A DNA stretch of 26,751 nt from positions 1 through 26,751 of the forward strand of contig CABJAE010000010.1 of NCBI GenBank assembly GCA_902363535.1, read 5' to 3'. How positions within the stretch are numbered: position 1 is the first letter of the stretch; each line of letters starts with the position of its first letter. The translations under genes were made by a program, and so were the position numbers. The DNA comes from Peptoniphilaceae bacterium. Its GTDB lineage: Bacteria; Bacillota; Clostridia; Tissierellales; Peptoniphilaceae. Shown here piece after piece: positions 2 to 26,751 of this stretch. The notes beneath the pieces are model-generated. The model saw only the letters and a program-made list of their open reading frames with translations, made no database searches and had not been told where the DNA came from.

Positions 2-2641
2 TTTGCGAACAGCTATGACAAGTTAGATAGAAACAACAAGAACTATTTTGAAGACGACGGCGAATATGAAGAATTATTCAAAGAAGCCGTAGGTGAGACT
101 TGGTTTGAATATATTGGACAAAGCAATAACTATAGTTCACGTGACAATATTAGATTAAATTTATTATCTAGCTATTACAATAAAATCAAATCACCAACTC
201 CATGGACACCAATAACACCATCAAAGACAGACGTTAAAGTAAAAAAAGCTTGGGAAGATAAAGATGGGAAAGAAATAGCAGCCCCAGTAGAAGAAATTGA
301 AGTAGAACTCTACAAAGATGGAAATGCCACAGGTGAAAAGAAAAAACTAAACAAAGCTAACAATTGGAAAGCAGAATTTAAAGATTTGGACGTAGTAGAA
401 AAGACAGATTCAGAAAAGGCCTACGAATATACAGTAAAAGAAGTTGGCGAAAAAGACGGAAGCATTACCATAGGGGACAGTAAATACAAAGTAAGCTATA
501 ACGGAAGCATGGAAGAAGGCTTTAAAGTAACAAATAAGTTAGAGGAAAAATCAAGCCCATGGACACCAATAACACCATCAAAGACAGACGTTAAAGTAAA
601 AAAAGCTTGGGAAGATAAAGATGGAAAAGAAATAGCAGCCCCAGTAGAAAAAATAGAAGTAGAACTCTACAAAGATGGAAAAGCTACAGGCAAAAATCTA
701 GAACTAAACAAAGCCAACAAGTGGAGTGGAGAATTCAAAGACTTAGATGTATTGGAAAAAGTAGACTCAGAAAAAGCCTACGAATACACAGTAAAAGAAG
801 TCGGAGAAGAAAAAGGCAAAGTAGTTATAGGAAACAATAAATACGAAGTAAAATATAGCGGAAGTATGAAAGATGGATTCACTATAACTAACGAAGAAGA
901 GCCAACAATCCCTCCAACACCACTAGATCCACCAAAGGAAGACATCAAGGTTGAAAAGATTTGGCAAGACAAAGGCGGAAAAGAAATATCCGCACCAGTA
1001 GACAAAATCGAAGTAGAACTCTACAGAGACGGAAAATCTACAGGCAAAAAGCTAGAACTAAACAAAGCCAATAATTGGAGTGGGGAATTTAAAGACTTAG
1101 ACGTAGTAGAAAAATTAGACTCAGAAAAAGCCTACGAATACTCAGTCAAAGAAGTTGGGGAAGAAAAAGGCAAAGTGGCTATAGGAAACAATAAATACGA
1201 AGTAAAATATAGCGGAAGTATGAAAGATGGATTCACTATAACTAACGAAGAAGAACCAACAATCCCTCCAACACCACTTGATCCACCAAAGGAAGACATT
1301 AAGGTTGAAAAGATTTGGCAAGACAAAGACGGAAAAGAAATATCCGCACCAGTAGACAAAATCGAAGTAGAACTCTACAGAGACGAAAAATCTACAGGCA
1401 AAAAGCTAGAACTAAACAAAGCCAATAATTGGAGTGGAGAATTTAAAGACTTAGACGTAGTAGAAAAATTAGACTCAGAAAAAGCCTACGAATACTCAGT
1501 CAAAGAAGTTGGGGAAGAAAAAGGTAAAGTAGTTATAGGAAATAATAAATACGAAGTAAAATATAGCGGAAGTATGAAAGATGGATTCACTATAACTAAC
1601 GAAGAAGAGCCAACAATCCCTCCAACACCACTAGATCCACCAAAGGAAGACATCAAGGTTGAAAAGATTTGGCAAGACAAAGACGGAAAAGAAATATCCG
1701 CACCAGTAGACAAAATCGAAGTAGAACTCTACAGAGACGGAAAATCTACAGGCAAAAAGCTAGAACTAAACAAAGCCAATAATTGGAGTGGAGAATTTAA
1801 AGACTTAGACGTAGTAGAAAAAGTAGATTCAAAAGAGGCCTTTAAATACTCAGTAAAAGAAGTCGGAGAAGAAACTGGATCAATTAAGCTGAATGGGCAT
1901 TGGTACAAAGTAAATTACAGTGGGTCTATGAAAGATGGCTTTACAGTAACAAATAAAGAAGAGCCTAAAACACCGCCTACACCACCAACACCATCTGAAC
2001 CAGATACTATAACTATTAAAGTTAAGAAAGACTGGACTTTATATGGAAATAAACCAGTAGACAAAATCGTGGTTGAACTATATAGAGATGGAAAAGCTAC
2101 AGGGAAAATTCTTGAGTTAAATAAAGATAATAATTGGAGTGGAGAATTCAAGAACTTAGATGTTAAGAAAGGTGCAAATTCAACGCATGACTACCACTAT
2201 ACGATAAAAGAAATTGGCGAATCTGGAAATACAATAAAACTAGATGGAAGATGGTTTGATGTCAATTATCTTGGCAATATGAAAGATGGTTTTACAATTG
2301 TAAATAAAGAAGAAAAACCAAAAGAGCCAGGTAAGCCAGAAGAACCAAGTACACCAAATAAACCTAATGACCCACAGGAACCAAATAAACCTAATCACCC
2401 ACAAGAACCAAATAAGCCTGAAACTCCAAAAGAGCCAGAAAAGCCAAATAACCCTGGAACACCAGTTAAACCAAATATTCCTAAGACTCCTTTACCAGGT
2501 AAGCCTCTACCTAAAACAGGAAACGGATTAAATCCATCAACCTATGCTTGGATTTTACTAGGACTTGGTAATCTTTCTACTTTTGCTGGAATTCAAAGAA
2601 AAAAGAGAATAAAATCAAGAAGAAAGAAAAATGTCAAATAA
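2..2641 (+). CDS. LPxTG-anchored CnaB-repeat surface adhesin (5' partial)
   Basis: The reading frame is open from the window edge, so the N-terminus lies outside; the first in-frame ATG (386) is internal to a repeat. About 75 residues of unrecognised ectodomain precede six CnaB-type modules. A Pro/Lys/Glu-rich stalk follows, then the sorting signal LPKTG (2507-2521), a hydrophobic segment (AWILLGLGNLSTFAG) and a very basic tail, which is the standard layout for sortase anchoring to peptidoglycan. In each module a Lys in the KVKKxW or KVEKIW strand, a Glu in VKE and an Asn in the closing TN are kept; in the CnaB family these form a Lys-Asn isopeptide bond. The likely role is adhesion or a rigid surface stalk; the ligand is unknown. 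The stop overlaps the sortase gene by 11 bases. Base composition is AT-rich, unlike the genes after 4750, which suggests transfer. Confidence 0.9.
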   Translation, partial: FANSYDKLDRNNKNYFEDDGEYEELFKEAVGETWFEYIGQSNNYSSRDNIRLNLLSSYYNKIKSPTPWTPITPSKTDVKVKKAWEDKDGKEIAAPVEEIEVELYKDGNATGEKKKLNKANNWKAEFKDLDVVEKTDSEKAYEYTVKEVGEKDGSITIGDSKYKVSYNGSMEEGFKVTNKLEEKSSPWTPITPSKTDVKVKKAWEDKDGKEIAAPVEKIEVELYKDGKATGKNLELNKANKWSGEFKDLDVLEKVDSEKAYEYTVKEVGEEKGKVVIGNNKYEVKYSGSMKDGFTITNEEEPTIPPTPLDPPKEDIKVEKIWQDKGGKEISAPVDKIEVELYRDGKSTGKKLELNKANNWSGEFKDLDVVEKLDSEKAYEYSVKEVGEEKGKVAIGNNKYEVKYSGSMKDGFTITNEEEPTIPPTPLDPPKEDIKVEKIWQDKDGKEISAPVDKIEVELYRDEKSTGKKLELNKANNWSGEFKDLDVVEKLDSEKAYEYSVKEVGEEKGKVVIGNNKYEVKYSGSMKDGFTITNEEEPTIPPTPLDPPKEDIKVEKIWQDKDGKEISAPVDKIEVELYRDGKSTGKKLELNKANNWSGEFKDLDVVEKVDSKEAFKYSVKEVGEETGSIKLNGHWYKVNYSGSMKDGFTVTNKEEPKTPPTPPTPSEPDTITIKVKKDWTLYGNKPVDKIVVELYRDGKATGKILELNKDNNWSGEFKNLDVKKGANSTHDYHYTIKEIGESGNTIKLDGRWFDVNYLGNMKDGFTIVNKEEKPKEPGKPEEPSTPNKPNDPQEPNKPNHPQEPNKPETPKEPEKPNNPGTPVKPNIPKTPLPGKPLPKTGNGLNPSTYAWILLGLGNLSTFAGIQRKKRIKSRRKKNVK
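230..2330 (+). repeat. Six tandem CnaB-domain coding repeats, ~354 bp unit
   Basis: Repeat units begin at 230, 587, 941, 1295, 1649 and 2012. The spacing is 357, 354, 354, 354 and 363 bases. Units 3 to 5 are nearly identical at DNA level, differing at only about ten positions between units 3 and 4. Units 1 and 2 share a different linker (SPWTPITPSKTD), and unit 6 is the most diverged, with GRWFDVNY in place of NNKYEVKY. This gradient of similarity fits recent duplication or gene conversion in the middle of the array. Copy number may vary between strains, and short-read assembly could collapse it. Confidence 0.9.
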
Positions 2642-3296
2642 GCAAAAAAAAGATCATCTAAGTAAATTTCTTCTTGCAGTCGGGTTAATATTCATTGTTT
2701 TTTCTATTGCTTTTCTATTCCTAAACCATAAGAGGATAGAATTAAAGAAAGAAGAATCTATTAATCTGGAAAAACAAATAAAACAAGAATTACCTCCTTT
2801 TGAAAATTACGAACAGGAGAATAAACCTGAAGAGATAGAACAAAATGTTGCATCAAAAGACTCTATAAAAGATACAGCTATAGGCGTTCTTAGGATTGAT
2901 AAGATAGGAGTAATTACCCCTATTAGTGACAATACAAGTGAACAATCTTTATTAGAAGGTTCAGGTATTGTTGAAGATACAGATATACCGACTTCAGAGG
3001 AAAATACTATAACTGTTCTTGCGGGACACAGAGGAGGGATAAACGAAACGCAATCTTTTTTAAACATTGATAAGTTGGAAAAAGGTGATGAGCTAAAAAT
3101 TACTACTAGGGAAGAAGAACTCTATTACAAAGTAGTTGATAAAGAAGTGATTGAACCTACAGACTGGAGTAAATTTACACGAGAAGAAGGAAAGACGAAA
3201 CTCTTTTTAATGGCGTGTCACCCCTATCCAAAAAACGATAAAAGGCTTTTAGTAAAAGCTGAGCTAATCAAAAATGATGAAAAGATAAACAACTAA
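2631..3296 (+). CDS. Sortase (class A/D-like transpeptidase)
   Basis: This 221-residue protein has a short basic N-terminus, one membrane segment at about residues 13-31 and an extracellular linker rich in Glu and Lys. The sortase fold follows from about residue 80. The catalytic set is visible: His133 in AGHRGG, Cys196 in LFLMACHPYP and Arg205 in DKRLLV. Sortases cleave LPxTG between Thr and Gly and join the protein to the cell wall or to a pilin. The gene overlaps the adhesin stop by 11 bases and has only a purine-rich, weak ribosome site, so translation is probably coupled. The position suggests a dedicated sortase for the upstream LPKTG protein. Class assignment is uncertain because TLxTC is replaced by LFLMAC. 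Confidence 0.88.
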   Translation: MSNKQKKDHLSKFLLAVGLIFIVFSIAFLFLNHKRIELKKEESINLEKQIKQELPPFENYEQENKPEEIEQNVASKDSIKDTAIGVLRIDKIGVITPISDNTSEQSLLEGSGIVEDTDIPTSEENTITVLAGHRGGINETQSFLNIDKLEKGDELKITTREEELYYKVVDKEVIEPTDWSKFTREEGKTKLFLMACHPYPKNDKRLLVKAELIKNDEKINN

Positions 3297-3379: not shown

Positions 3380-3823
3380 ATGGCAAAATACAGTTATGAG
3401 TTGAAGAAGAAAATCGTCGAAGAATACCTGTCCGGGAAGACAAGCTATCCCGTCTTAGAAAATAAGTATCAAATCGGCGAATCGCAGATCAGACGCTGGG
3501 TGAACAATTACAAACAATTTGGCGATGAAGGGTTAATGCGCTCTAGAAATAATCGTGAGTACAGTGTAGAGTTTAAGTTAGAAGCCATCACACGCTACGA
3601 AACGAGCGACCGCAATCAAGCACCAAATCCTTCAAAGTCGAGTGAAGATCTTGATGCTTCCACACGGGAGGCATTGGAAAATCGCATCAAAGAATTAGAA
3701 GCGGAGAACGAAATACTCACCATTCAAAAGATGTTCTGGGAGCAGCTAAGGAGTTTGGCGAGGGAAGAAAAAATGAACAAAAGGCGAGGATCGTCGCCAA
3801 ACTCCGAGAACAATTCCAACTAA
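3380..3823 (+). CDS. IS3-family transposase OrfA
   Basis: This 147-residue protein begins with a helix-turn-helix (about residues 5-50: ELKKKIVEEYLSG...GESQIRRWVNNY). A second HTH-like start (EYSVEFKLEAITRY) follows, then a leucine-zipper-like helix (ALENRIKELEAENEIL) near residues 95-115. This is the normal DNA-binding half of IS150-type transposases. After about residue 130 the frame gives a low-complexity tail (KRRGSSPNSENNSN) that probably has no function, because productive reading shifts into orfB before this. It is transcribed from within or just upstream of the element. Confidence 0.9.
   Translation: MAKYSYELKKKIVEEYLSGKTSYPVLENKYQIGESQIRRWVNNYKQFGDEGLMRSRNNREYSVEFKLEAITRYETSDRNQAPNPSKSSEDLDASTREALENRIKELEAENEILTIQKMFWEQLRSLAREEKMNKRRGSSPNSENNSN
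3767..3776 (+). other. Probable -1 frameshift site joining OrfA and OrfB
   Basis: A run of six A (3768-3773) lies in orfA codons GAA AAA ATG. A shift of -1 here joins OrfA ...LRSLAREEK to the orfB frame NEQKARIVAKLREQF..., which restores the continuous protein expected for IS3-family OrfAB. The orfB frame has no good start codon before 3865, although conserved-looking sequence begins around 3775. The exact slip mechanism (ribosomal or transcriptional slippage) cannot be told from sequence. Confidence 0.6.
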
Positions 3824-3864
3824 GAAAGATTCTTGCCGCCATCAACTTTCCAAAATCCACCTTT

Positions 3865-4665
3865 ATGTACTGGCAGAAAAAGTGGAGTGAAGAAGATAAG
3901 GATCAAGCGTTAAAAGATGAAATCTTGGCCATCCGACACGAACACAAAGACTACGGCTACCGAAGGATCCACCTGGAGCTGAAGAACCGGGGTTGGGCGA
4001 TCAACAAAAAGAAAGTTCAACGATTGGTTCAGGTCATGGGCCTTCAAGTCCGTGCCTATAGGAGAAAATACAAGAAGTACAACTCCTACAAAGGCATCGT
4101 CGGAAAAATCAAGAAAAATCGAATCAATCGACGCTTCAATACCTCCATCCCCTACCAAAAAATTACCACCGACACCACGGAATTCAAATACTACGTCGAA
4201 GATAAAGTGGGGAAACTCCAAACAAAGAAACTCTACCTCGATTCGTACATGGACATGTACAATCTGGAAATCATCAGCTACGTCCTCTCCGATCAGCCCA
4301 ACGGCGTCACCATGCTACAAGGCTTAGAAGAAGCCATCGAACGAACCCGCACCTGCCCCTACCGCCGCACCTTCCACTCCGATCGCGGGTGGGGCTACCA
4401 AATGACCGCCTATCAAGCCATGCTGAAAGAACACCACATCTTCCAAAGCATGTCGAGAAAAGGCAACTGCTACGACAACGCACCCATGGAAAACTTCTTC
4501 AGCGTCCTGAAAAGAGAAATCTACGACGGATATGTTTACCGAAGTCGGGGAGAACTCGTCCGGACCATCGAGTGCTTTATCCGCTACTACAACAACGATC
4601 GAATCAAAGAAAAGTTAGGAGGCCTGAGTCCGAAACAATACCGTGAACGCATGGAATCTGCATAG
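3865..4665 (+). CDS. IS3-family transposase OrfB (DDE integrase core)
   Basis: The first ATG in this frame is 3865, but related sequence extends upstream to the A-run near 3770, so the natural product is an OrfA-OrfB fusion by -1 frameshift. The N-terminal part carries the HTH_21-type motif HEHKDYGYRRIHLEL. The integrase core shows Asp in ITTDTTEF, Asp in FHSDRGWGYQ and Glu in NAPMENFFSVLKRE, which is the DDE triad. The end YYNNDRIKEKLGGLSPKQYR is typical of the IS150 group. The catalytic core appears intact, so the element may be active. Confidence 0.93.
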   Translation: MYWQKKWSEEDKDQALKDEILAIRHEHKDYGYRRIHLELKNRGWAINKKKVQRLVQVMGLQVRAYRRKYKKYNSYKGIVGKIKKNRINRRFNTSIPYQKITTDTTEFKYYVEDKVGKLQTKKLYLDSYMDMYNLEIISYVLSDQPNGVTMLQGLEEAIERTRTCPYRRTFHSDRGWGYQMTAYQAMLKEHHIFQSMSRKGNCYDNAPMENFFSVLKREIYDGYVYRSRGELVRTIECFIRYYNNDRIKEKLGGLSPKQYRERMESA

Positions 4666-9044: not shown

Positions 9045-9907
9045 CAGAGACGAGAGATGTAGTCGGCGTGCGATTTAAGCGCCGCGGAAAAATTTATTAC
9101 TTCGATCCGAAAGACGCCGAGCCTGCCTTAGACGGCGGCGTCATCGTGGAGACCTCCAGGGGCGTGGAATACGGCTACGTGGCCATGGAGCGCAAGGCCA
9201 TCGAGGCCGAAGATGTCGTGGGCGAGCTGAAGCCCATTGTTCGCATAGCCACGGAAGACGACGACAGGCGCCACCTGTCCAATCGCAATCTGGCCCGGGA
9301 GGCCATGGTGGTCTGCGAGGAAAAAATAAAAGAACACGGCTTGAAAATGCGCCTGATCAGCGCGGAATACACCTTCGACAATTCCAAGCTCCTCTTTTAC
9401 TTCACCGCCGACGGTCGGGTGGATTTCCGCCGCCTGGTTCGCGATTTAGCGGCGATTTTCCGCACCCGCATCGAGCTCAGACAAATCGGCGTTCGCGACG
9501 AAGCCAAGCTTTTAGGCGGCATCGGCATTTGCGGCCGGGAATGCTGCTGCGCATCCTTTCTCGGGGATTTTTCCCCCGTATCCATTAACATGGCCAAGGA
9601 TCAGGGCCTTTCCCTAAATCCCGACGCCATCAGCGGCGTCTGCGGCAGACTCTTGTGCTGCCTCAGGTACGAACAGCCGGGCTACGAGACCAATTTAAAA
9701 ATCATGCCCCGCGTGGGACGTGTGGTCTACACCGCCGAAGGAAAGGGCGTAGTGGTTTCCACCAACACCTTGCAGGCCTTGGTGAAGGTAAAAATCGAAA
9801 CCGACGACGGCGTGGAATTTGTCGTGGTCTCCGCCGAAGATCTGGCGAGAAAGCCCTGCCGGGGAAAGGGGTGTGCCCATGAAGGGGATATGGAAGAAGC
9901 TGAATAG
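9041..9907 (+). CDS. ricT: RicT (YaaT), PSP1-domain regulator of RNA maturation
   Basis: This 288-residue protein has a PSP1 domain. Its conserved cysteine clusters are GICGRECCC (residues 162-170) and VCGRLLCC (about 200-207), the residues linked to iron-sulfur clusters in the RicA-RicF-RicT complex that helps RNase Y in Bacillus. The C-terminus adds CRGKGC. The start is TTG 9041 in TTGA, overlapping the holB stop, with GGGAGG nine bases upstream; a GTG at 9008 would run through that ribosome site. Linkage to tmk, darA and holB is conserved in Firmicutes. Confidence 0.93.
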   Translation: MTETRDVVGVRFKRRGKIYYFDPKDAEPALDGGVIVETSRGVEYGYVAMERKAIEAEDVVGELKPIVRIATEDDDRRHLSNRNLAREAMVVCEEKIKEHGLKMRLISAEYTFDNSKLLFYFTADGRVDFRRLVRDLAAIFRTRIELRQIGVRDEAKLLGGIGICGRECCCASFLGDFSPVSINMAKDQGLSLNPDAISGVCGRLLCCLRYEQPGYETNLKIMPRVGRVVYTAEGKGVVVSTNTLQALVKVKIETDDGVEFVVVSAEDLARKPCRGKGCAHEGDMEEAE

Positions 9908-11825
9908 AGGCAAATTCAACGGCGGGCGATTGGCGTGGCTCGCAGGCTTCTTGGCGCTCTTTTTCCTCGACGAATTCCCCGGTTTCTACTTTCAGACGAA
10001 GATTCCCCACGCCGCGGCCGACGTGGCCCTGTGGGGGATCTATTTTTGTGCCCTTCTCGGGATCCTCGCCCTCATAAGAAAATTCGCCTCGGCCATCCTT
10101 ACTCCGGCGGCGACGGAGCTCATCCTTCTCGGGCTCCTGGCCTATCAGGTGACGGATGTACTCCGCACCACTTCCTTTTTGGGCCCCTCCTCCGATACCT
10201 ACATCTACGGTGCCACCGCCGCCGTGGTGGCGATCATTTGGCTATTCGCCCTGGGCATGGGGGCGCGGAAGCTCTATCCCATGGCAGCCCTTCTCGGCGG
10301 CCTCCTTATGGCGGGGCTCATCTTTGTCTGCGCATGGCCCGGCCCGAAGACCCGCCCGGACGTGGCCCGTGCAGAGAAGACGATTCCCGCCGCCTATAAG
10401 GTAGAAAAAATTACTTACGGCCCGAAAAGCGCCTACGACTACGGGGAGGAAAATTACGCCTCCTACCTGCGCCTGCCCAAGGGCCAGGACCGCTGGCGGA
10501 AACTGTTTTTCGGCTACACGCCGGCCCACGTGCCCTACGAAGGGGATCTGTACCTGCCCGTGGGCGCAAAAAATGCCCCTCTCCTCGTCTTCGTTCACGG
10601 CAATCACAACATGATCGAAGACAACAAAGGGGGCTACGAGTATTTGGGCCGCTACTTGGCGGCGCGGGGCGTGGCCTTTCAATCCGTGGAGCAATCCCAT
10701 TTTAACGCCTACTTCGGCAAGGGCCTTTCCGGCGAAAACGACGCCCGGGCCCTGAGCCTCTTGGATCACGCCGACAAAATTCTGAACGATCCCCGCTTCA
10801 AGGACCGCATCGATCGAGACCGCGTCTTTCTCGGCGGCCACAGCCGCGGCGGCGAGGCGGCGGCCGTGGCGGCATCCTTCGCCGAATTGCCCTACAATCC
10901 CGACACCGGCCGAGCCACGAAAGACATCAAGGTGGCCGGCGTCCTGGCCGTGGCCCCCACCGACGGCCAGTACAAGCCCGGGGACCGGCCCGTGGATTTA
11001 AATGTGCCCTACTTCCTCGTCACCGGAGCCTGGGATCAAGACGTGTCCTCCCTGGAAGGCATGGATCAATACCTCCGCGCCGGCGCCTGGCGGGGCCAGC
11101 TCTTTGTGGACTACGCCAATCACAGCCAATTTAATTCCAACTGGGGCCGCCTGGATCGAGAGGGCCTCGCCGCCCTGGCCCTGGCCACGGGAAACATTTT
11201 GGACAAAGCCGATCAAGAGCGCTTCCTTGAAGTGGCGGCCTACGCCTTTATCGAAGACCGGGAAGTATTGAATGACATGAAAGCCTACCTGCCTCAATCG
11301 GGCTTTGCCCTCGCCACCCAGCCGAAGAGCCGCGTCCTCGCCGATTTCGAAGAAGACGCGGACCTTACCACCGCCTCAGGCGCCGAGCCGGATATAAAAG
11401 GCGCCACCACCTATCAGGAAGGCGCCTTCATTCCCTCCGATCGCGGCGGCACCAATCACGTGGCCCGACTCATCGGCACCTACGCCCTGAACGTAGACGG
11501 GGGAGGGGAGGGGGCCTTCGCACTGGACGTGGCGGCAAAAAGCGGCCGCGCCGATATTAAAATCACCTTGATCGACGCCGCCGGCGAAGCCGTACACATT
11601 ACTCCGAAAAAAGACGCGCTCCACGCCGCCCACGAAACCGGCCTTTTAAAATGGCAGTACGCGGCGAAAAAGTGGGAATACAAGCGGGCACTGGAGACGG
11701 TGCGCTTCACGAAAAGCGCCATGGCGAAAGAAAACCCCGCCTTTCATCTCAAGGACCTGAGCCGCGTGGAAATCACCGTGGGGGGCCTTACGGAAATCGA
11801 CAATATTCGTATCGAAAGCGATTAA
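9879..11825 (+). CDS. Membrane-anchored alpha/beta hydrolase
   Basis: This 648-residue protein has about five hydrophobic segments in its first 160 residues, then an alpha/beta hydrolase domain. The motif FVHGNHN looks like the oxyanion-hole strand. The nucleophile elbow is GHSRGG with Ser322. Candidate triad partners are Asp in VTGAWDQD and His in DYANHSQF. After about residue 480 comes a beta-rich tail of unknown type (LADFEEDADL...INDIRIES-like strands) ending near IDNIRIESD. Substrate is unknown; an extracellular or membrane-face esterase, lipase or deacylase is possible. ATG 9879 overlaps ricT by 29 bases and has GGAAAGGGG just upstream, so it is probably co-translated. It sits where yabA-type genes are found in Bacillus. 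Confidence 0.8.
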   Translation: MKGIWKKLNRGKFNGGRLAWLAGFLALFFLDEFPGFYFQTKIPHAAADVALWGIYFCALLGILALIRKFASAILTPAATELILLGLLAYQVTDVLRTTSFLGPSSDTYIYGATAAVVAIIWLFALGMGARKLYPMAALLGGLLMAGLIFVCAWPGPKTRPDVARAEKTIPAAYKVEKITYGPKSAYDYGEENYASYLRLPKGQDRWRKLFFGYTPAHVPYEGDLYLPVGAKNAPLLVFVHGNHNMIEDNKGGYEYLGRYLAARGVAFQSVEQSHFNAYFGKGLSGENDARALSLLDHADKILNDPRFKDRIDRDRVFLGGHSRGGEAAAVAASFAELPYNPDTGRATKDIKVAGVLAVAPTDGQYKPGDRPVDLNVPYFLVTGAWDQDVSSLEGMDQYLRAGAWRGQLFVDYANHSQFNSNWGRLDREGLAALALATGNILDKADQERFLEVAAYAFIEDREVLNDMKAYLPQSGFALATQPKSRVLADFEEDADLTTASGAEPDIKGATTYQEGAFIPSDRGGTNHVARLIGTYALNVDGGGEGAFALDVAAKSGRADIKITLIDAAGEAVHITPKKDALHAAHETGLLKWQYAAKKWEYKRALETVRFTKSAMAKENPAFHLKDLSRVEITVGGLTEIDNIRIESD

Positions 11826-14966: not shown

Positions 14967-16001
14967 ATGTTTAATTTCAGAAACGACTACCACGATTTAT
15001 GCCATCCGAATGTATTGAAAGCCCTGGCTGCCACCGACGGCGAGGGAAATATGGGCTACGGCTTCGATCCCCACACGGAGCGGGCCACGCGCCTGATTCA
15101 GGAAGCTGCAGGCGGCGACTACCCCGTGCACTTCGTCCACGGCGGCACGGCGGCCAATGTCCTGGCCCTCACCTTCCACCTCCGCCCCCATGAAGCCATC
15201 GTAAGTGCTGATCTGGGCCACGTCGTGGGACACGAAGTGGGCGCCATGGAAGCGGCGGGCCACAAAGTGGTCACTGTAAAAACCGAAGCAGGCAAATACG
15301 ATCCCGAGGTGCTCGACGAATTCATCGCATCCTTCGGCGACTTCCACAATGTCCTTCCCGGCATCATCTACCTATCAAACACCACGGAAACCGGCCTCGT
15401 CTACCGAAAAGAAGAGCTCGCCGCCATTAAAAAAGTGGCCGACAAATATTCTCTTCCCGTCTACATCGACGGCGCCCGCATGGCCAGCGCCCTCACAAGC
15501 GAGGTCAATGACGTGAAGCTTTCCGAATACATGGACTACGCCGATATCTTCTCCGTCGGCGGCACGAAAAACGGTGCCCTCTTCGGCGAAGCTTTGGTCT
15601 TTAAAAACGAGGACCTGGCCCGGGAATTTATCTACTTCCAAAAACAGCGTGCCCTCTTGATGGCCAAAGGCTTTACCCTGGGCGCCCAGTACGAAGCCCT
15701 CTTCACCGACGACCTCTTTTTCGAAAACGGCCGCGCCGCCAATGGGGCCGCCAGCTACCTCGCCCGAGAACTCGCCTACCTGGACGTGGAATTTATCTAT
15801 CCCCCCGAGAGCAATCAATTATTTATTCGCCTGCCGAAAGCTGTGGCCGACGAGTTGGAAAAACACGGCCAATTCGACATTATGGGCCCGAAAGAAGACG
15901 GCACTGTCCCCGTCCGCTTCGTCACCGATTACAACACGACGAAAGATGAAATCGACGGTGCCATCAAAATCCTGGAAGGCCTCTTAAACGAAACGCTTTA
16001 G
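14967..16001 (+). CDS. Low-specificity L-threonine aldolase / beta-eliminating lyase family
   Basis: This 344-residue PLP enzyme starts NFRNDYHDLCHPNVL, a variant of the family's FRSDT opening. It shows HGGTAAN (58-64), IDGARMASAL (Asp168, Arg171) and the PLP lysine Lys201 in SVGGTKNGALFGEA. Relatives cleave threonine or allo-threonine to glycine and acetaldehyde. ATG 14967 is chosen because AAAGGGG ends 6 bases upstream; the GTG at 14961 overlaps that site. It is divergent from another PLP enzyme and precedes the transporter unit, which has its own promoter. Confidence 0.87.
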   Translation: MFNFRNDYHDLCHPNVLKALAATDGEGNMGYGFDPHTERATRLIQEAAGGDYPVHFVHGGTAANVLALTFHLRPHEAIVSADLGHVVGHEVGAMEAAGHKVVTVKTEAGKYDPEVLDEFIASFGDFHNVLPGIIYLSNTTETGLVYRKEELAAIKKVADKYSLPVYIDGARMASALTSEVNDVKLSEYMDYADIFSVGGTKNGALFGEALVFKNEDLAREFIYFQKQRALLMAKGFTLGAQYEALFTDDLFFENGRAANGAASYLARELAYLDVEFIYPPESNQLFIRLPKAVADELEKHGQFDIMGPKEDGTVPVRFVTDYNTTKDEIDGAIKILEGLLNETL

Positions 16002-16032
16002 TCCGAAAAAGGGAAAATCAGAGTAAATTGGT

Positions 16033-16061
16033 TTGACAAGGCAAGGGTGCCGTGTTATGAT
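16033..16061 (+). promoter_or_regulatory. Strong promoter of the leader peptide / ABC transporter operon
   Basis: TTGACA (16033-16038) is a perfect -35, the spacer is 17 bases, and TATGAT (16056-16061) is preceded by TGT, giving an extended -10 as well. The start is expected near 16068, about 18 bases before the leader peptide ATG. Such a strong promoter fits control by attenuation rather than by initiation. Confidence 0.85.
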
Positions 16062-16085
16062 AAGAAAAAATCAAAAGGAGAAACC

Positions 16086-16193
16086 ATGAACACCTTATTC
16101 CAAAGCATCTGCAAATGTGCTTGTTCCTGTACCTGTTGTTGTACGGGTTATTTGCCTGCGCAGATGTTGGGAAACGACATGGCTTTGTCCTGA
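16086..16193 (+). CDS. Cysteine-rich leader peptide (35 aa)
   Basis: A short ORF with AAAAGGAG 5 bases before its ATG. Residues 9-19 read CKCACSCTCCC, that is seven Cys codons (TGC/TGT) in eleven positions; the stop TGA is 16191-16193. The peptide has no other notable feature, and its use is most simply as a ribosome-stalling sensor of charged tRNA-Cys. Leader peptides rich in the regulated amino acid are classic for trp, his and leu attenuators, and poly-Cys uORFs controlling sulfur genes are known in mycobacteria. An alternative is a free metal-binding microprotein. Confidence 0.75.
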   Translation: MNTLFQSICKCACSCTCCCTGYLPAQMLGNDMALS

Positions 16194-16245
16194 TTGTTAT
16201 TTTCCATAGGCATCTTGAAGCGGGCTTCGGCTCGCTTTTTTATTT
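16105..16245 (+). promoter_or_regulatory. Putative cysteine-responsive transcription attenuator
   Basis: Three mutually exclusive pairings can be drawn. 1:2 is GCATCTGC (16105-16112, over the first Cys codon) with GCAGATGT (16160-16167). 2:3, the antiterminator, is GCCTGC (16154-16159) with GCGGGC (16220-16225) plus AGATGT (16162-16167) with GCATCT (16210-16215). 3:4, the terminator, is AAGCGGGC (16218-16225) with GCTCGCTT (16230-16237). A ribosome stalled at Cys codons 9-13 would cover segment 1 and free segment 2 for 2:3, so transcription continues. With enough Cys-tRNA, 1:2 forms and 3:4 terminates. This is inferred from pairing alone. Confidence 0.7.
16218..16245 (+). terminator. Attenuator terminator with UUCG loop
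   Basis: AAGCGGGC and GCTCGCTT form 8 pairs (one G-U) closed by the very stable TTCG tetraloop, then TTTT-A-TTT. It stands between the leader peptide and the first permease gene, where it must be bypassed for transporter expression. Confidence 0.85.
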
Positions 16246-16262
16246 GCCTGAAAGGAGTTGTC

Positions 16263-16931
16263 ATGAACCGAGAATTTCTCGTGGCCATGCTGCCGCAGTA
16301 CGCTGCGGCGGCGAAGCTTACCCTGTCTATCGGGCTCATCGGGGTGGCGGGATCCGTCCTCTTGGGGCTCATCCTCGCCTTTATTCGGGTGGAAAAAGTC
16401 CCCGTCCTAAACGGCTTGGCCAAAGCCTACATAGAAATCTCCAGAAATACCCCCCTGTTGATTCAACTGTTTTTTCTCTACTTCGGCCTGCCGAAGATCG
16501 GCATCGTCCTATCCTCGGAAGCCTGCGCCGTCGTGGGCCTGATCTTTCTCGGGGCAAGCTACATGGCTGAGTCCTTCCGCTCCGGCATCGAAGCCGTGGA
16601 TGTGCGGCAGATCGAAGCGGCCATGGCCATCGGCCTCACCAAGCACCAGCGCATCCGCCACGTCGTCCTGCCCCAGGCATTGGCCATCGCCATCCCCTCT
16701 TTGGGCGCCAACACCATCTTTCTCTTGAAAGAAACCTCCGTCTTCAGCGCCGTGGCCCTGGCGGATCTTATGTACGTGGCAAAAGACTTAATCGGCATCT
16801 ACTACGAAACCGACGAAGCCCTCTTGCTCTTGGTCTTATCTTACCTGGTGATCCTGGTTCCCGTAGCCGTGATCTTCAGCCTGCTTGAAAGGAGGATGCG
16901 ACGTGGCATCGGCACAAGCGCTATTGCTTAA
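16263..16931 (+). CDS. Polar amino acid ABC transporter permease 1
   Basis: This 222-residue protein has several membrane segments and the His/Glu/Gln-type permease signature EAAMAIGLTKHQRIRHVVLPQAL, the loop that contacts the ATPase. The start ATG 16263 has AAAGGAG 7 bases upstream; an upstream TTG at 16194 in frame would make the terminator hairpin part of the coding region and is rejected. It is the first transport gene behind the cysteine leader and probably forms a heterodimer with the next gene. Confidence 0.9.
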   Translation: MNREFLVAMLPQYAAAAKLTLSIGLIGVAGSVLLGLILAFIRVEKVPVLNGLAKAYIEISRNTPLLIQLFFLYFGLPKIGIVLSSEACAVVGLIFLGASYMAESFRSGIEAVDVRQIEAAMAIGLTKHQRIRHVVLPQALAIAIPSLGANTIFLLKETSVFSAVALADLMYVAKDLIGIYYETDEALLLLVLSYLVILVPVAVIFSLLERRMRRGIGTSAIA

Positions 16932-17580
16932 TCCACATACAATCACAAGACTCCTGAAAGGCCTCTCCGTTACCCTGCGCGTGTCTCTCATCTCCGTGGC
17001 CCTCTCCATCCTCTTCGGCCTCGTATTCGGCTGGACCATGACCAAAAAATCCCCGGTCATCAAAATCCTTTCGAAAATCTACTTGGAATTCATGCGCCTC
17101 ATGCCCCAACTCGTGCTCCTCTTTATCGTCTACTTCGGCATGGCGCGGGCCCTGGGCGTGCATATCTCGGGATTTAACGCCGCCATCATCGTCTTCACCC
17201 TCTGGGGCACGGCGGAAATGGGCGATCTCGTCCGCGGCGCCATCTCATCCATTCCGAAACACCAATACGAAGCCGCCCAATCCATCGGCCTCACCCGCCT
17301 TCAGGTCATGGGCTACGTCGTGCTTCCACAAGCACTTCGCCGCCTCATACCCCAGGCCATGAACCTCGTGACCCGCATGATCAAAACCACCTCCCTCATC
17401 GCCCTCATCGGCGTCGTGGAAGTCATCAAAACCGGGCAACAAATTGTGGAAGCCGTGCGGCTGGAATTCGCCTCCGCGGCCCTTTGGATCTACCTCGTCA
17501 TCTTGATTTTATACTTTTTGGTTTGCTATCCCCTGTCCAAATGGGCCGGGCACTTAGAAAAGAAATGGAAGGAGGCATAA
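16903..17580 (+). CDS. Polar amino acid ABC transporter permease 2
   Basis: This 225-residue permease of the same family carries the motif YEAAQSIGLTRLQVMGYVVLPQALRRLIPQ and about five membrane segments. GTG 16903 is preferred: AAAGGAGG ends 8 bases before it, inside the previous gene, and a TTG at 16885 would lie upstream of that site. The 29-base overlap with permease 1 implies coupled translation. Together the two permeases would form the channel for the ATPase and binding protein that follow. Confidence 0.9.
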   Translation: MASAQALLLNPHTITRLLKGLSVTLRVSLISVALSILFGLVFGWTMTKKSPVIKILSKIYLEFMRLMPQLVLLFIVYFGMARALGVHISGFNAAIIVFTLWGTAEMGDLVRGAISSIPKHQYEAAQSIGLTRLQVMGYVVLPQALRRLIPQAMNLVTRMIKTTSLIALIGVVEVIKTGQQIVEAVRLEFASAALWIYLVILILYFLVCYPLSKWAGHLEKKWKEA

Positions 17581-18314
17581 TGGCCATACTGGAAATAAAA
17601 GACATGGTAAAAGCCTACGACGGCGCCCCCATCTTCAGCGGCTTTTCCCTAAACGTTGAAAAAGGCGACGTCATCGCCGTTCTGGGCCCCTCGGGCTGCG
17701 GCAAAAGCACCATGCTTCGTTGCATCAACGGCCTGGAAAAAATTCAGGGAGGCGACATTCTCCTGAACGGCGAAAGCGTCGTAAAAGAAGAAAAAGACAT
17801 GCCCGGCGTCAGGAAAAAAATCGGCATGGTCTTTCAGTCCTACGAACTCTTCGGCCACATGACGGTCCTCGACAACCTTACCCTCGGGCCCGTGAAGGCC
17901 AAAGGCGAAGACAAAGCCGAGGCCGAAAAGCGCGCCCTGGCCCTCTTGGATCGGGTGGGACTCAAAGACAAAGCCCAAAGCTTTCCGAGAAACCTCTCCG
18001 GCGGCCAGCAACAGCGCGTCGCCATCCTTCGGGCCATGCTCATGGACCCGGAAATATTCCTCTTCGACGAAGTCACCGCCGCCCTGGACCCGGAAATGGT
18101 GCAGGAAGTCTTATCCCTCGTCGGCGAGCTGGCAAAAGAGGGAAAAACCATGCTCATCGTCACCCACGAGATGGAATTCGCGAGAAAAGTCGCGAACCGC
18201 ATCTTGTTTATGGAAGAAGGCCACATCATCGAAGACACGGGGCCGGAAGAATTTTTCGAGCACCCGACCACCGAACGAAGCCGCCGATTTTTAGAAGGAT
18301 TGCATTACAACTAA
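17580..18314 (+). CDS. Amino acid ABC transporter ATP-binding protein
   Basis: This 244-residue ATPase has Walker A GPSGCGKST (36-44), Q-loop in VFQSYELF, signature LSGGQQQR (139-146), Walker B IFLFDE (159-164) and the switch His in IVTHEM. It is of the GlnQ/TcyC type and would energise the two permeases on the cytoplasmic side. Its ATG shares one base with the TAA of permease 2, with GGAGG just upstream. Confidence 0.94.
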   Translation: MAILEIKDMVKAYDGAPIFSGFSLNVEKGDVIAVLGPSGCGKSTMLRCINGLEKIQGGDILLNGESVVKEEKDMPGVRKKIGMVFQSYELFGHMTVLDNLTLGPVKAKGEDKAEAEKRALALLDRVGLKDKAQSFPRNLSGGQQQRVAILRAMLMDPEIFLFDEVTAALDPEMVQEVLSLVGELAKEGKTMLIVTHEMEFARKVANRILFMEEGHIIEDTGPEEFFEHPTTERSRRFLEGLHYN

Positions 18315-18324
18315 GGAGGACAAA

Positions 18325-19179
18325 ATGAAAAAACTGCTTACCGTACTTATGATCGCCACACTCGCCCTGGGCCTCGTAGCCTGCGGCGGCGCGGAAGAAG
18401 AAGGCGCCCCGGCCGCCGACAAAGCCGGCGTACGCACCGTCGACGAAATCAAAAAATCCGGCGAAATCACCATCGGCGTCTTCGGCGACAAAAAACCCTT
18501 CGGCTACATGGACGAAAAAGGCCAATTTAAAGGCTACGACATCGCCCTCGGCGATCGCATCGGCGAAGAACTGGGCGTGAAAGTCAAATACATTCCCGTG
18601 GAAGCCGCAAGTCGCGTCGAATACCTGAACGCCAACAAAATCGACCTCTTGCTCGCCAACTTCACCGTCACCGACGAGCGAAAAGAACAAGTCGACTTTG
18701 CGCTGCCCTACATGAAAGTCTCCCTGGGCGTCGTGTCCCCGAAAGGCGAAATCACCGACGTTTCCCAACTGAAAGACAAAACCCTCATCATCTCCAAAGG
18801 CACCACGGCGGAAACCTACTTCACCGAAAAACACCCCGAAGTGAAACTGCAAAAATACGACCAATACGCCGAAGCCTACAGCGCCCTCTTAGACGGCCGC
18901 GGCGACGCTATGAGCACCGACAACACCGAAGTTTTGGCATGGGCACTTGAAAACGACGGCTACGACGTGGGCATCAAAACCCTCGGCGATGTGGATTACA
19001 TTGCCCCCGCCGTAAAAAAAGGCAACAAAGAAATGCTCGACTGCGTGAATGGAATCATCGAAAAACTCTACGGAGAAAAATTCTTCATCAAAGCATTTGA
19101 AGACACCCTCGCCCCCACCTACGGCGATGCCGCCAAGGCAGAAGACATGGTAGTGGAGGAGAAGCCGGCAGACTTTTAA
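18325..19179 (+). CDS. CjaA-like cysteine-type substrate-binding lipoprotein
   Basis: This 284-residue protein has a lipoprotein signal peptide with lipobox LVAC (Cys20), then a family 3 solute-binding domain. Stretches such as GVFGDKKPFGYMDEKG, GYDIALGDRIGEEL, LLANFTVTDERKEQVDFALPYMKV and KGTTAETYFT closely follow what I recall of Campylobacter CjaA, a cysteine-binding protein. The match is from memory, not a search. AAGGAGG precedes the ATG. Attached to the outer face of the membrane, it would deliver cysteine or a similar amino acid to the permeases encoded just upstream. Confidence 0.85.
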   Translation: MKKLLTVLMIATLALGLVACGGAEEEGAPAADKAGVRTVDEIKKSGEITIGVFGDKKPFGYMDEKGQFKGYDIALGDRIGEELGVKVKYIPVEAASRVEYLNANKIDLLLANFTVTDERKEQVDFALPYMKVSLGVVSPKGEITDVSQLKDKTLIISKGTTAETYFTEKHPEVKLQKYDQYAEAYSALLDGRGDAMSTDNTEVLAWALENDGYDVGIKTLGDVDYIAPAVKKGNKEMLDCVNGIIEKLYGEKFFIKAFEDTLAPTYGDAAKAEDMVVEEKPADF

Positions 19180-19226
19180 AAATAAGGAAAGGATCGAGAG
19201 GAATCGATCCTTTCCTTATTTTTATT
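19178..19226 (+). terminator. Terminator of the transporter operon
   Basis: A 20-bp perfect stem (19178-19197 with 19204-19223, 6-base loop) starts in the stop codon of the binding protein. Its right arm ends in a TTATTTTTATT tract. The core GGAAAGGATCGA is GC-moderate and the outer part is A/T, giving a typical terminator that may work on both strands. Confidence 0.85.
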
Positions 19227-25625: not shown

Positions 25626-26751
25626 TCACCGGTCTTTTGAACAGACGAAAAGCAGTTTGGTTCGGAAATGATGAAAGTTTTGCATCCCAAAGGCCACGCG
25701 CTTCACCGTCTTGATCTTGTTGTGCGTTCCCTCCACGTAGCCGTTACTCCACGGGTAATCAAAGCTGTTGGTGATCTCCTCGAACCAGTTGTTGTAGGCG
25801 CGCAAGCAGTAGCGCCATTCCCTTTGCCCGCCTTTCTTTGCCTCTTCCATCCACTTTGAAAGAGCGGTGGCGGCGGTTTCTTTGTCGTTCTGAGAAAGGA
25901 CGTAGGTGTAAAAGCCTTCTTTTAAGATGTAGGCGGTTCGAATGGCGTCGCTCTTTTCAAGCATGGTGGCGACAAGGCTTTTCTCCGCTTCGGTCAGGTC
26001 TTTCGCCGGCTTTTTTAGGAGGCTGCGGCTCCTTTTAAACCATTTTCTCTCCGTTGCCGTCATCCGTTTCTGCTCCCGCTTCCTTACGTTTTCCAAGGCC
26101 CAATGGACTTGGCGGATGAAATGGTAGCGGTCAATGACATGGGTACTCTGTGGAAAGAAGGCTTCTCTCACGCCTTTAAAGGTGCCGCACATATCGCTGA
26201 CAAAGATTTCGACGCCGCGTCGTTCCGCTCGATCAATGGAAGAGAAATACGCGGCTAAATCCTTGCCGTAGCGTGTCGGAAGAATGTCGATGATCCGATG
26301 GGCCTCTCCATCGGCCAAGGTGGTTTGGTACTTGCTTCCGCCGCTATCGCCCTTAAACTCGTCGATGCAAAAGACGCGAGGCAGCCGTTGACGGGGCACA
26401 AACAAACAAGCGACGATGCGGAAAATGCTCGTCGTTGAGATCCCCACCTCCTTAGCCAGCTCTGACACGGATCGGATATCCCGGAAGGCGTCCACCACAT
26501 AAGCGATTAAGCGCTTTGTCATCTGTTTGCCCTTGGCGGCAAAGGAAAGGGGCGCTTCAAAGCGCGCGCCGCAATCCTTGCAATCATACCGTGTCTTCTT
26601 AACCCGCAGAAGCACGTGCTTTCGGCGCATCGGTGCGTCCCGAAGCACTTGCTTCCGGTGATCGTGGACCCAAGCGTGGGTCGAGCCACAGTGAGGACAA
26701 ACCCGATCATGAACGGGTTTGCAGTCAATGGTAATGAGCCGTCTTTCTTCT
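25626..26751 (-). CDS. ISL3-family transposase (N-terminus outside the window)
   Basis: The frame is open to the window edge on the minus strand. Its N-terminal part includes a zinc ribbon VCPHCGSTHAWVHDHR ... YDCKDCGARF, then an HTH (VSELAKEVGISTTSIFRIV) and the DDE domain, with Asp in FCIDEFKGD, Asp in IFVSDMCGTFKGV and Glu in NGYVEGTHNKIKTVKR. The internal GTG at 26648 would cut the zinc ribbon and is not the start. The visible part shows no breaks, so the transposase may be functional. Confidence 0.9.
   Translation of the reverse strand, partial: EERRLITIDCKPVHDRVCPHCGSTHAWVHDHRKQVLRDAPMRRKHVLLRVKKTRYDCKDCGARFEAPLSFAAKGKQMTKRLIAYVVDAFRDIRSVSELAKEVGISTTSIFRIVACLFVPRQRLPRVFCIDEFKGDSGGSKYQTTLADGEAHRIIDILPTRYGKDLAAYFSSIDRAERRGVEIFVSDMCGTFKGVREAFFPQSTHVIDRYHFIRQVHWALENVRKREQKRMTATERKWFKRSRSLLKKPAKDLTEAEKSLVATMLEKSDAIRTAYILKEGFYTYVLSQNDKETAATALSKWMEEAKKGGQREWRYCLRAYNNWFEEITNSFDYPWSNGYVEGTHNKIKTVKRVAFGMQNFHHFRTKLLFVCSKDR

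Follow-up and report, generated by a model that had tools for sequence, protein, structure and literature searches.

The 35-codon leader ORF that precedes an ABC importer operon in the window (i.e., the whole stretch of 26,751 nucleotides of Peptoniphilaceae DNA analyzed here) is best explained, with a probability of roughly 0.8, as a ribosome-mediated transcription attenuator that reads charged tRNA-Cys ahead of a probable cysteine importer. A trp-style cysteine attenuator had already been proposed for this site in a sequence-only reading, and the proposal is supported: the features that it named are present and the comparative test is favourable.

In general terms, RNA polymerase would start shortly past the -10 element, and the leader would be translated while it emerges. 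Two situations can then be differentiated: (i) when cysteine is plentiful, the ribosome would clear the run of Cys codons, segment 1 would re-pair with segment 2 behind it and, once helix 1:2 has formed, segment 3 would be free, so that the 3:4 hairpin would stop transcription near 16241; and (ii) when charged tRNA-Cys is scarce, the ribosome would stall on the first Cys codons (16110-16124) and cover segment 1, so that 2:3 would pair before segment 4 is made and the polymerase would continue into the importer.

The leader and the importer operon in the window

The following features can be distinguished (window coordinates, strand, description):

16033..16061, +, putative promoter from a sequence scan: -35 TTGACA, 17 bp, -10 TATGAT, TG extension
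16076..16080, +, ribosome-binding site AGGAG of the leader ORF
16086..16193, +, leader ORF of 35 codons, ATG at 16086, TGA at 16191-16193, MNTLFQSICKCACSCTCCCTGYLPAQMLGNDMALS
16105..16113, +, segment 1, GCATCTGCA, which takes in the first Cys codon
16126..16147, +, hairpin within the Cys run, CCUGUAC/GUACGGG, nested in 1:2
16154..16168, +, segment 2, GCCTGCGCAGATGTT
16209..16225, +, segment 3, GGCATCTTGAAGCGGGC, which overlaps the terminator 5' arm
16217..16241, +, intrinsic terminator, segments 3:4, GAAGCGGGC-UUCG-GCUCGCUUU (16217-16238), then U tract
16230..16238, +, segment 4, the terminator 3' arm
16263..16931, +, ABC permease 1, polar amino acid importer, HEQRo_perm_3TM domain
16903..17580, +, ABC permease 2, GTG start
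17580..18314, +, ABC ATPase, polar amino acid type
18325..19179, +, substrate-binding lipoprotein, closest solved relatives 1xt8 and 2yjp

The strong promoter and the 35-codon Cys-run ORF with a good ribosome site, both claimed in the sequence-only reading, were borne out. The promoter matches 11 of the 12 consensus bases, with a TG ahead of the -10; two promoter-like sites, of which it is the better, were found over the 4.5 kb scanned, versus 2.4 in shuffles, and therefore the count itself is not beyond chance. Regarding the ORF, its ribosome-binding site suggests that it is translated. The Cys codons (16110, 16116, 16122, 16128, 16134, 16137 and 16140; one TGC and six TGT) amount to seven within 11 codons. 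Cys thus takes up 7 of the 35 positions, versus 40 of the 4968 residues (0.8%) of 15 other ORFs of the window (binomial P = 1.2e-8). A run of regulatory codons in a short ORF, as is typical of trp-type attenuators, is therefore present far above chance.

Between the leader ORF and the first gene lies an intrinsic terminator, a further mark of trp-type attenuators. As had been claimed, it is capped by UUCG; it has 9 bp and ends 24 nt ahead of the first permease. In the same 4.5 kb, 12 terminator-like sites were found, versus 8.5 in shuffles, and the leader terminator, with nine pairs, stands at the top of the list.

The alternative pairings 1:2, 2:3 and 3:4 described earlier are also present. 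Helix 1:2 joins 16105-16112 with 16160-16167, while 2:3 consists of two parts: (i) 16154-16159 with 16220-16225; and (ii) 16162-16168 with 16209-16215. The window leader folds better than shuffles (z = -3.49). Within single leaders, complementarity is weak: P values are 0.025-0.12 for helix 1:2 and 0.0035-0.45, mostly not significant, for the upper arm of 2:3 in nine leaders. The support for the helices is their conservation, not complementarity within one sequence. In any case, an antiterminator that shares the terminator 5' arm, together with a 1:2 helix that competes with it at the codon run, is found here and is mostly conserved in the nine leaders of the genus.

A T-box or riboswitch was also considered for the window leader. 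No Rfam family matched it at the gathering threshold, RF00230 included, and the best match in 16000-16300 at E<=10 was SorY (24.3 bits versus a cut-off of 111).

The four genes of the importer operon end at 19179. According to NCBIfam, the permeases and the ATPase fall in the polar amino acid uptake group, and no equivalog above cut-off was found for them among the families listed (for the ATPase, the best 25 of 189). The binding protein gives two outstanding PDB matches, 1xt8 (E 1.2e-84) and 2yjp (2e-78), the third being about 40 orders of magnitude weaker (6.7e-36). We take 1xt8 to be CjaA and 2yjp to be a Neisseria protein, both solved with cysteine bound. Because these are the best matches, cysteine is the likely ligand of the importer, and the sequence (1xt8 match) supports the earlier description of the last gene as CjaA-like, with a cysteine ligand that we likewise assume. 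A long palindrome, AAATAAGGAAAGGATCG...CGATCCTTTCCTTATTT, follows the binding-protein gene (19180-19225) and is probably the terminator of the operon.

Elsewhere in the window, the following elements were observed: (i) a gene for a surface protein with Cna-B repeats (five matched stretches), followed by a sortase gene (386-3296); (ii) a two-ORF transposase element with HTH and rve domains (3380-4665, + strand); (iii) an ISL3-family transposase (25626-26648, - strand); and (iv) a 668-aa ORF (9819-11825) with no Pfam match at E<=0.001.

Conservation within and beyond the Peptoniphilaceae

The orthologous operon, defined by a permease match at E<=1e-50, occurs in 11 of 130 Peptoniphilaceae genomes, namely eight of the genus Aedoeadaptatus (G001-G008) and three from three other genera (G014, G016 and G133). 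All 11 have a terminator directly ahead of the permease. A Cys-rich leader ORF is present in ten, that of G133 being the poorest (CTCC plus one more Cys). The leader of G016 (L009) has two Cys and a run of Ser (AASCSSCSSLSSGSG) in place of the Cys run, and keeps the terminator. The sequence-only reading had suggested two checks in related genomes: the search for a Cys-rich ORF plus terminator thus turned out favourably, and the search for covariation in the arms yielded some compensatory changes, few in number.

Nine Aedoeadaptatus leaders (the window and the eight genomes) were aligned. The Cys run and the terminator are kept in all nine, and the three competing helices mostly so. Segment 2 varies at a single A/G position, and the codons TTG CCT GCG within it are the same throughout; in the adjoining permease, identity across all nine extends to 21 of 141 amino-acid-invariant codons and to 5 of 66 four-fold sites. 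Opposite segment 3, the A/G position forms five G-C pairs, three A-U and one G-U. In the Cys-run hairpin, compensatory changes were found from C-G to G-C (G002, G003) and from C-G to U-A (G008 and, in another genus, G014).

Two sets of helices were scored in the nine leaders: (i) for the hairpin plus 2:3, 94.4% of cells are paired versus 36.1-43.8% when slid, the covariation score (0.136) is equalled by 1 of 500 shuffles, and the two double-changed pairs, with seven pair types, are equalled by 181 of 500, in an alignment that misplaces the hairpin pair of G008; and (ii) for 1:2 plus the hairpin and 3:4, 95.8% are paired versus 26.5-55.2% when slid, the covariation score is equalled by 12 of 500 shuffles and the single double-changed pair by 211 of 500. 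Compensatory events are few because the nine related sequences fall in about five groups. Three of the eight pairs of helix 1:2 are broken, in three, three and two of the nine leaders. As for more distant leaders, G014 has altered helix sequences with the pairing retained, and pairing is weak or reversed in G133 and L101.

Upstream, the -35 region (TTTGACAA) recurs in all eight relatives of the genus, with a -10 of TATGAT in four and of TATTCT or TATCCT in the other four. Just before TTTGACAA, at 16018-16033 of the window and at the same place in L001-L008, there is a partly conserved stretch (TAAATTGG or similar) that may bind a regulator.

In the eight genus genomes, the pattern C-x-CCC gave 53 matches, eight of which are the importer leader, one per genome; among the other 45, the 42 that were read include no short ORF with an ATG start that avoids overlap with a frame of >=150 codons. 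The backward control pattern is commoner (140 matches) and, therefore, the motif as such is not enriched. Class-wide, runs of five Cys codons gave matches in 190 of 245 genomes, and 30 such loci among the matches listed held two short ORFs with an ATG start, each of which overlaps a longer frame. The eight genus genomes also have 9-11 T-box matches each and, without exception, a CysK/CysM-family synthase above the curated cut-off.

The search was extended to named genomes with alignment of the permease, and the best 80 of 538 confirmed stretches were kept. Removal of five duplicates (L040-L043, L058) and of L070 (short upstream DNA), and addition of the window, L001-L010 and L039, resulted in 86 loci. 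A leader was counted when an ATG ORF of 10-60 codons with >=3 Cys in five codons lay within the 420 bases upstream. Among the matches listed, such a leader occurs at 28 of the 86 loci, versus none in antisense and a mean of 1.05 (maximum 3) in 20 shuffles; with the stricter demand of four Cys in five codons, the count is 23 of 86 listed loci, versus 0 in antisense and 0.00 in shuffles. At the other 58 of the 86 tested loci among those listed, no Cys-run leader was found in the 420 upstream bases. Eleven of the 28 listed leader loci belong to the Peptoniphilaceae (the window, eight genus genomes, G014 and G133) and 17 lie outside. The latter include Anaerocolumna, Herbinix, Lacrimispora and Lachnoclostridium phytofermentans, as well as Candidatus Avacidaminococcus (Negativicutes), Candidatus Apopatocola, loci labelled Clostridia, Clostridiales, Eubacteriales or Bacillota, and one Paenibacillaceae-labelled MAG. 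The proposed attenuator is thus not confined to the Peptoniphilaceae, since poly-Cys leaders precede the same importer in other Clostridia and in one Negativicutes.

The Streptococcus and Treponema loci have no such leader in the 420 bases upstream of the permease; in Treponema, the binding-protein gene stands ahead of the permease in 8 of the 11 loci among the matches listed. A swap of sensor at orthologous operons was also considered: at 38 of the best 80 loci (19 without a Cys leader and 19 more, of which 16 have Cys leaders and three are from Streptococcus), cmscan at the gathering threshold returned one tRNA only.

The features that vary among these leaders bear on one alternative explanation, which we regard as improbable: the Cys-rich product might be a functional small protein or a peptide sensor (of a metal, an oxidant or a thiol) whose own chemistry stalls the ribosome, or which acts in trans, in such a way that the terminator would answer that signal and not charged tRNA-Cys. 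Cys-dense peptides can bind metals, and metal-related functions are known for other Cys-rich upstream peptides. Nevertheless, the spacing of Cys differs between lineages (CKCACSCTCCC, CACCCTCC, CICDCTCICCC, CCCMC, CCCCCMC, CCCCCC), the peptide ends vary in sequence and length and, outside the Cys run, what the genus keeps is segment 2 at the codon level. Likewise, the peptide was rejected as a member of a known protein family: none of eight leaders matches NCBIfam, and none matches Pfam over the cut-off (the weak matches being Pmp3, 16.4 bits versus 22.9, and Radical_SAM_2, 10.4 versus 26.7). Furthermore, among the matches listed, a binding-protein gene of the same type (53-92% identity) lies downstream of the permease in 19 of the 22 leader loci scanned; for the other three, no binding-protein match was found in the DNA retrieved around the locus.

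Ribosome position and the competing pairings

Attenuation by a stalled ribosome was modelled by masking a ribosome of 30 nt at each codon and calculating the upstream pairing of the terminator 5' arm just before the 3' arm is made. In the window, the predicted probability that segment 3 is paired upstream is 0.64 with the A site at Cys 9, 11 or 13, 0.31 at Cys 15, 17 and 18, and 0.55 at Cys 19. Elsewhere in the leader, it is 0.64-0.65 over codons 1-8 and 0.30 over codons 20-29; codons 30-35 give 0.35-0.64 and the stop 0.47. Given these values near the stop, a ribosome located there does not by itself exclude 2:3, and helix 1:2 must form first. With the same model, the values for E. coli trpL are 0.63-0.72 when the ribosome is at Trp 10, Trp 11 or Arg 12, versus 0.05 when it is at the stop. 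Among the relatives, G005 and G007 show a cleaner profile (about 0.6 across the Cys run and 0.3 at the stop), the contrast is small in G004, and in G003 the stop lies above the first Cys codons.

In a set of 29 leaders, the value at the first Cys codons is >0.05 above that at the stop in 20 and below it in four; the value at the densest part of the Cys run is above that of the last five codons and the stop in 17 and below it in seven. As high values are common at early positions, the proper test is a shuffle control. The difference between the first Cys codons and the stop is positive in 23 of the 29 leaders and averages 0.150, whereas 16 shuffles in which the terminator was kept average 0.012 and reach 0.076 at most. 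Without the strongest leader (L078), the difference is 0.128 versus a shuffle maximum of 0.081, and for the 18 leaders outside the family it is 0.156 versus 0.069. For the eight genus leaders alone, it is 0.154 versus a shuffle maximum of 0.237, some shuffles being higher. The difference is negative in six leaders, clearly in L007 (G003), L039 (G133), L056 and L101, and slightly in L057 and L079. A smaller set of 22 leaders, without near-duplicates and weaker leaders, gave a mean of 0.149 versus a maximum of 0.070 in 12 shuffles; contrary leaders such as L007 and L056 were omitted from it and are taken in by the set of 29. Two loci lie outside both sets: L082, for which the terminator finder returned nothing, and L001, a near copy of the window.

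When the full-length leader is folded, the terminator forms at about 0.95 in the window at every ribosome position, and at 0.97 in trpL. Since the full-length equilibrium always favours the terminator, the switch must be kinetic, in the window and in trpL alike. The sequence-only reading had proposed that a stalled ribosome frees segment 2 to block the terminator; in the model, it is favoured on average and, among the seven Cys codons of the window leader, at only the first three, and it is not favoured in six of the 29 leaders or at full-length equilibrium.

Known systems, further alternatives and meaning

The closest counterpart in mechanism is E. coli trpL, which likewise has a codon run in a leader ORF, the helices 1:2, 2:3 and 3:4, a U-tailed terminator and a comparable masking profile. 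The differences are: (i) Cys instead of Trp codons; (ii) an importer here versus biosynthesis in trp; (iii) a longer leader in the window, with its stop codon placed past segment 2 and ahead of segment 3, so that a ribosome at the stop leaves segment 2 uncovered; and (iv) an extra hairpin within the codon run.

Within the Bacillota, classical leader-peptide attenuation is known from the Lactococcus leu-phe leader (RF01743), which scores 14.2 bits on the window leader versus a cut-off of 70. Both this leader and the His leaders of Bacilli read other amino acids, whereas the window leader would read Cys. The His leader peptides of hisS/hisZ in Bacilli are described as leader-peptide attenuation in Bacillota and, according to the part of that paper available to us, there was no earlier demonstration outside Proteobacteria and Actinobacteria, with the exception of ermC (PMC2965389).

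For cysteine, the available part of another source predicts the attenuator uORFC-8-2 ahead of cysS in Rhodobacterales, with two tandem Cys codons (PMC8632094). The two systems are alike in that, in the text available, the uORF has Cys codons within a stem, an intrinsic terminator and a predicted response to charged tRNA-Cys; they differ in gene and clade, i.e., an importer in Bacillota here versus cysS in Alphaproteobacteria there (PMC8632094). The earlier statement that no ribosome-mediated cysteine attenuator had been described therefore holds for the Bacillota in the literature searched and fails for bacteria at large, and novelty is limited to the Bacillota because of the cysS prediction (PMC8632094, available part). 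No cysteine leader-peptide attenuator in Bacillota was found in that literature, whose coverage of subscription papers and preprints is thin.

Actinobacterial polycysteine uORFs also resemble the window leader, as leader ORFs with Cys-codon runs that precede cysteine genes. Those of mycobacteria were reportedly described by Canestrari in 2020. In the available parts of the sources, such uORFs precede cysteine genes in mycobacteria, P. acnes and B. longum, where a terminator was not found (PMC1262725), and the mycobacterial ones are described as translational attenuation (PMC13236596). An explanation of that type, in which stalling at Cys codons would alter access to the permease start or access of Rho, the hairpin being a by-product, would follow this precedent; we hold it to be as unlikely as the sensor peptide. 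The mycobacterial uORFs, which belong to another phylum and precede other genes, act without a terminator, whereas here a U-tailed hairpin stands between leader stop and permease in the nine genus leaders, G014, G016 and G133. Besides, among 19 further loci (17 leaders plus the weaker L056 and L088), the terminator finder located a terminator in 18, at 21-75 nt past the leader stop; in the one it missed, L082, a U-tailed hairpin of 15 pairs is present.

Least probable of all is that the leader is constitutive or otherwise regulated, with a terminator that merely lowers basal expression, or a protein acting near the promoter (where the stretch just upstream of the -35 is indeed partly conserved), and with the Cys run as a relic, since Cys runs have been kept or remade at the importer operon across distant lineages and, in the genus, lie nowhere else among the matches examined.

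The known cysteine controls in Bacillota are CymR and T-boxes. We lean towards a broader proposal: ribosome-mediated cysteine attenuation would be a common, so far unreported control of cysteine uptake across Bacillota (Tissierellia, Clostridia and at least one Negativicutes), kept or remade repeatedly at one importer, with T-boxes elsewhere in the genome and with a leader codon that can change (Ser/Cys, as in G016). Such short leaders, with no family matches for the eight tested, are easily missed in annotation. The set as a whole offers a natural series in which to ask how such attenuators persist, disappear or are retuned where T-boxes are present as well. Both sulfide output and redox balance are shaped by the supply of cysteine, and a leader-peptide switch at a cysteine importer, in cultured and uncultured lineages, would add a control that is visible from sequence alone.
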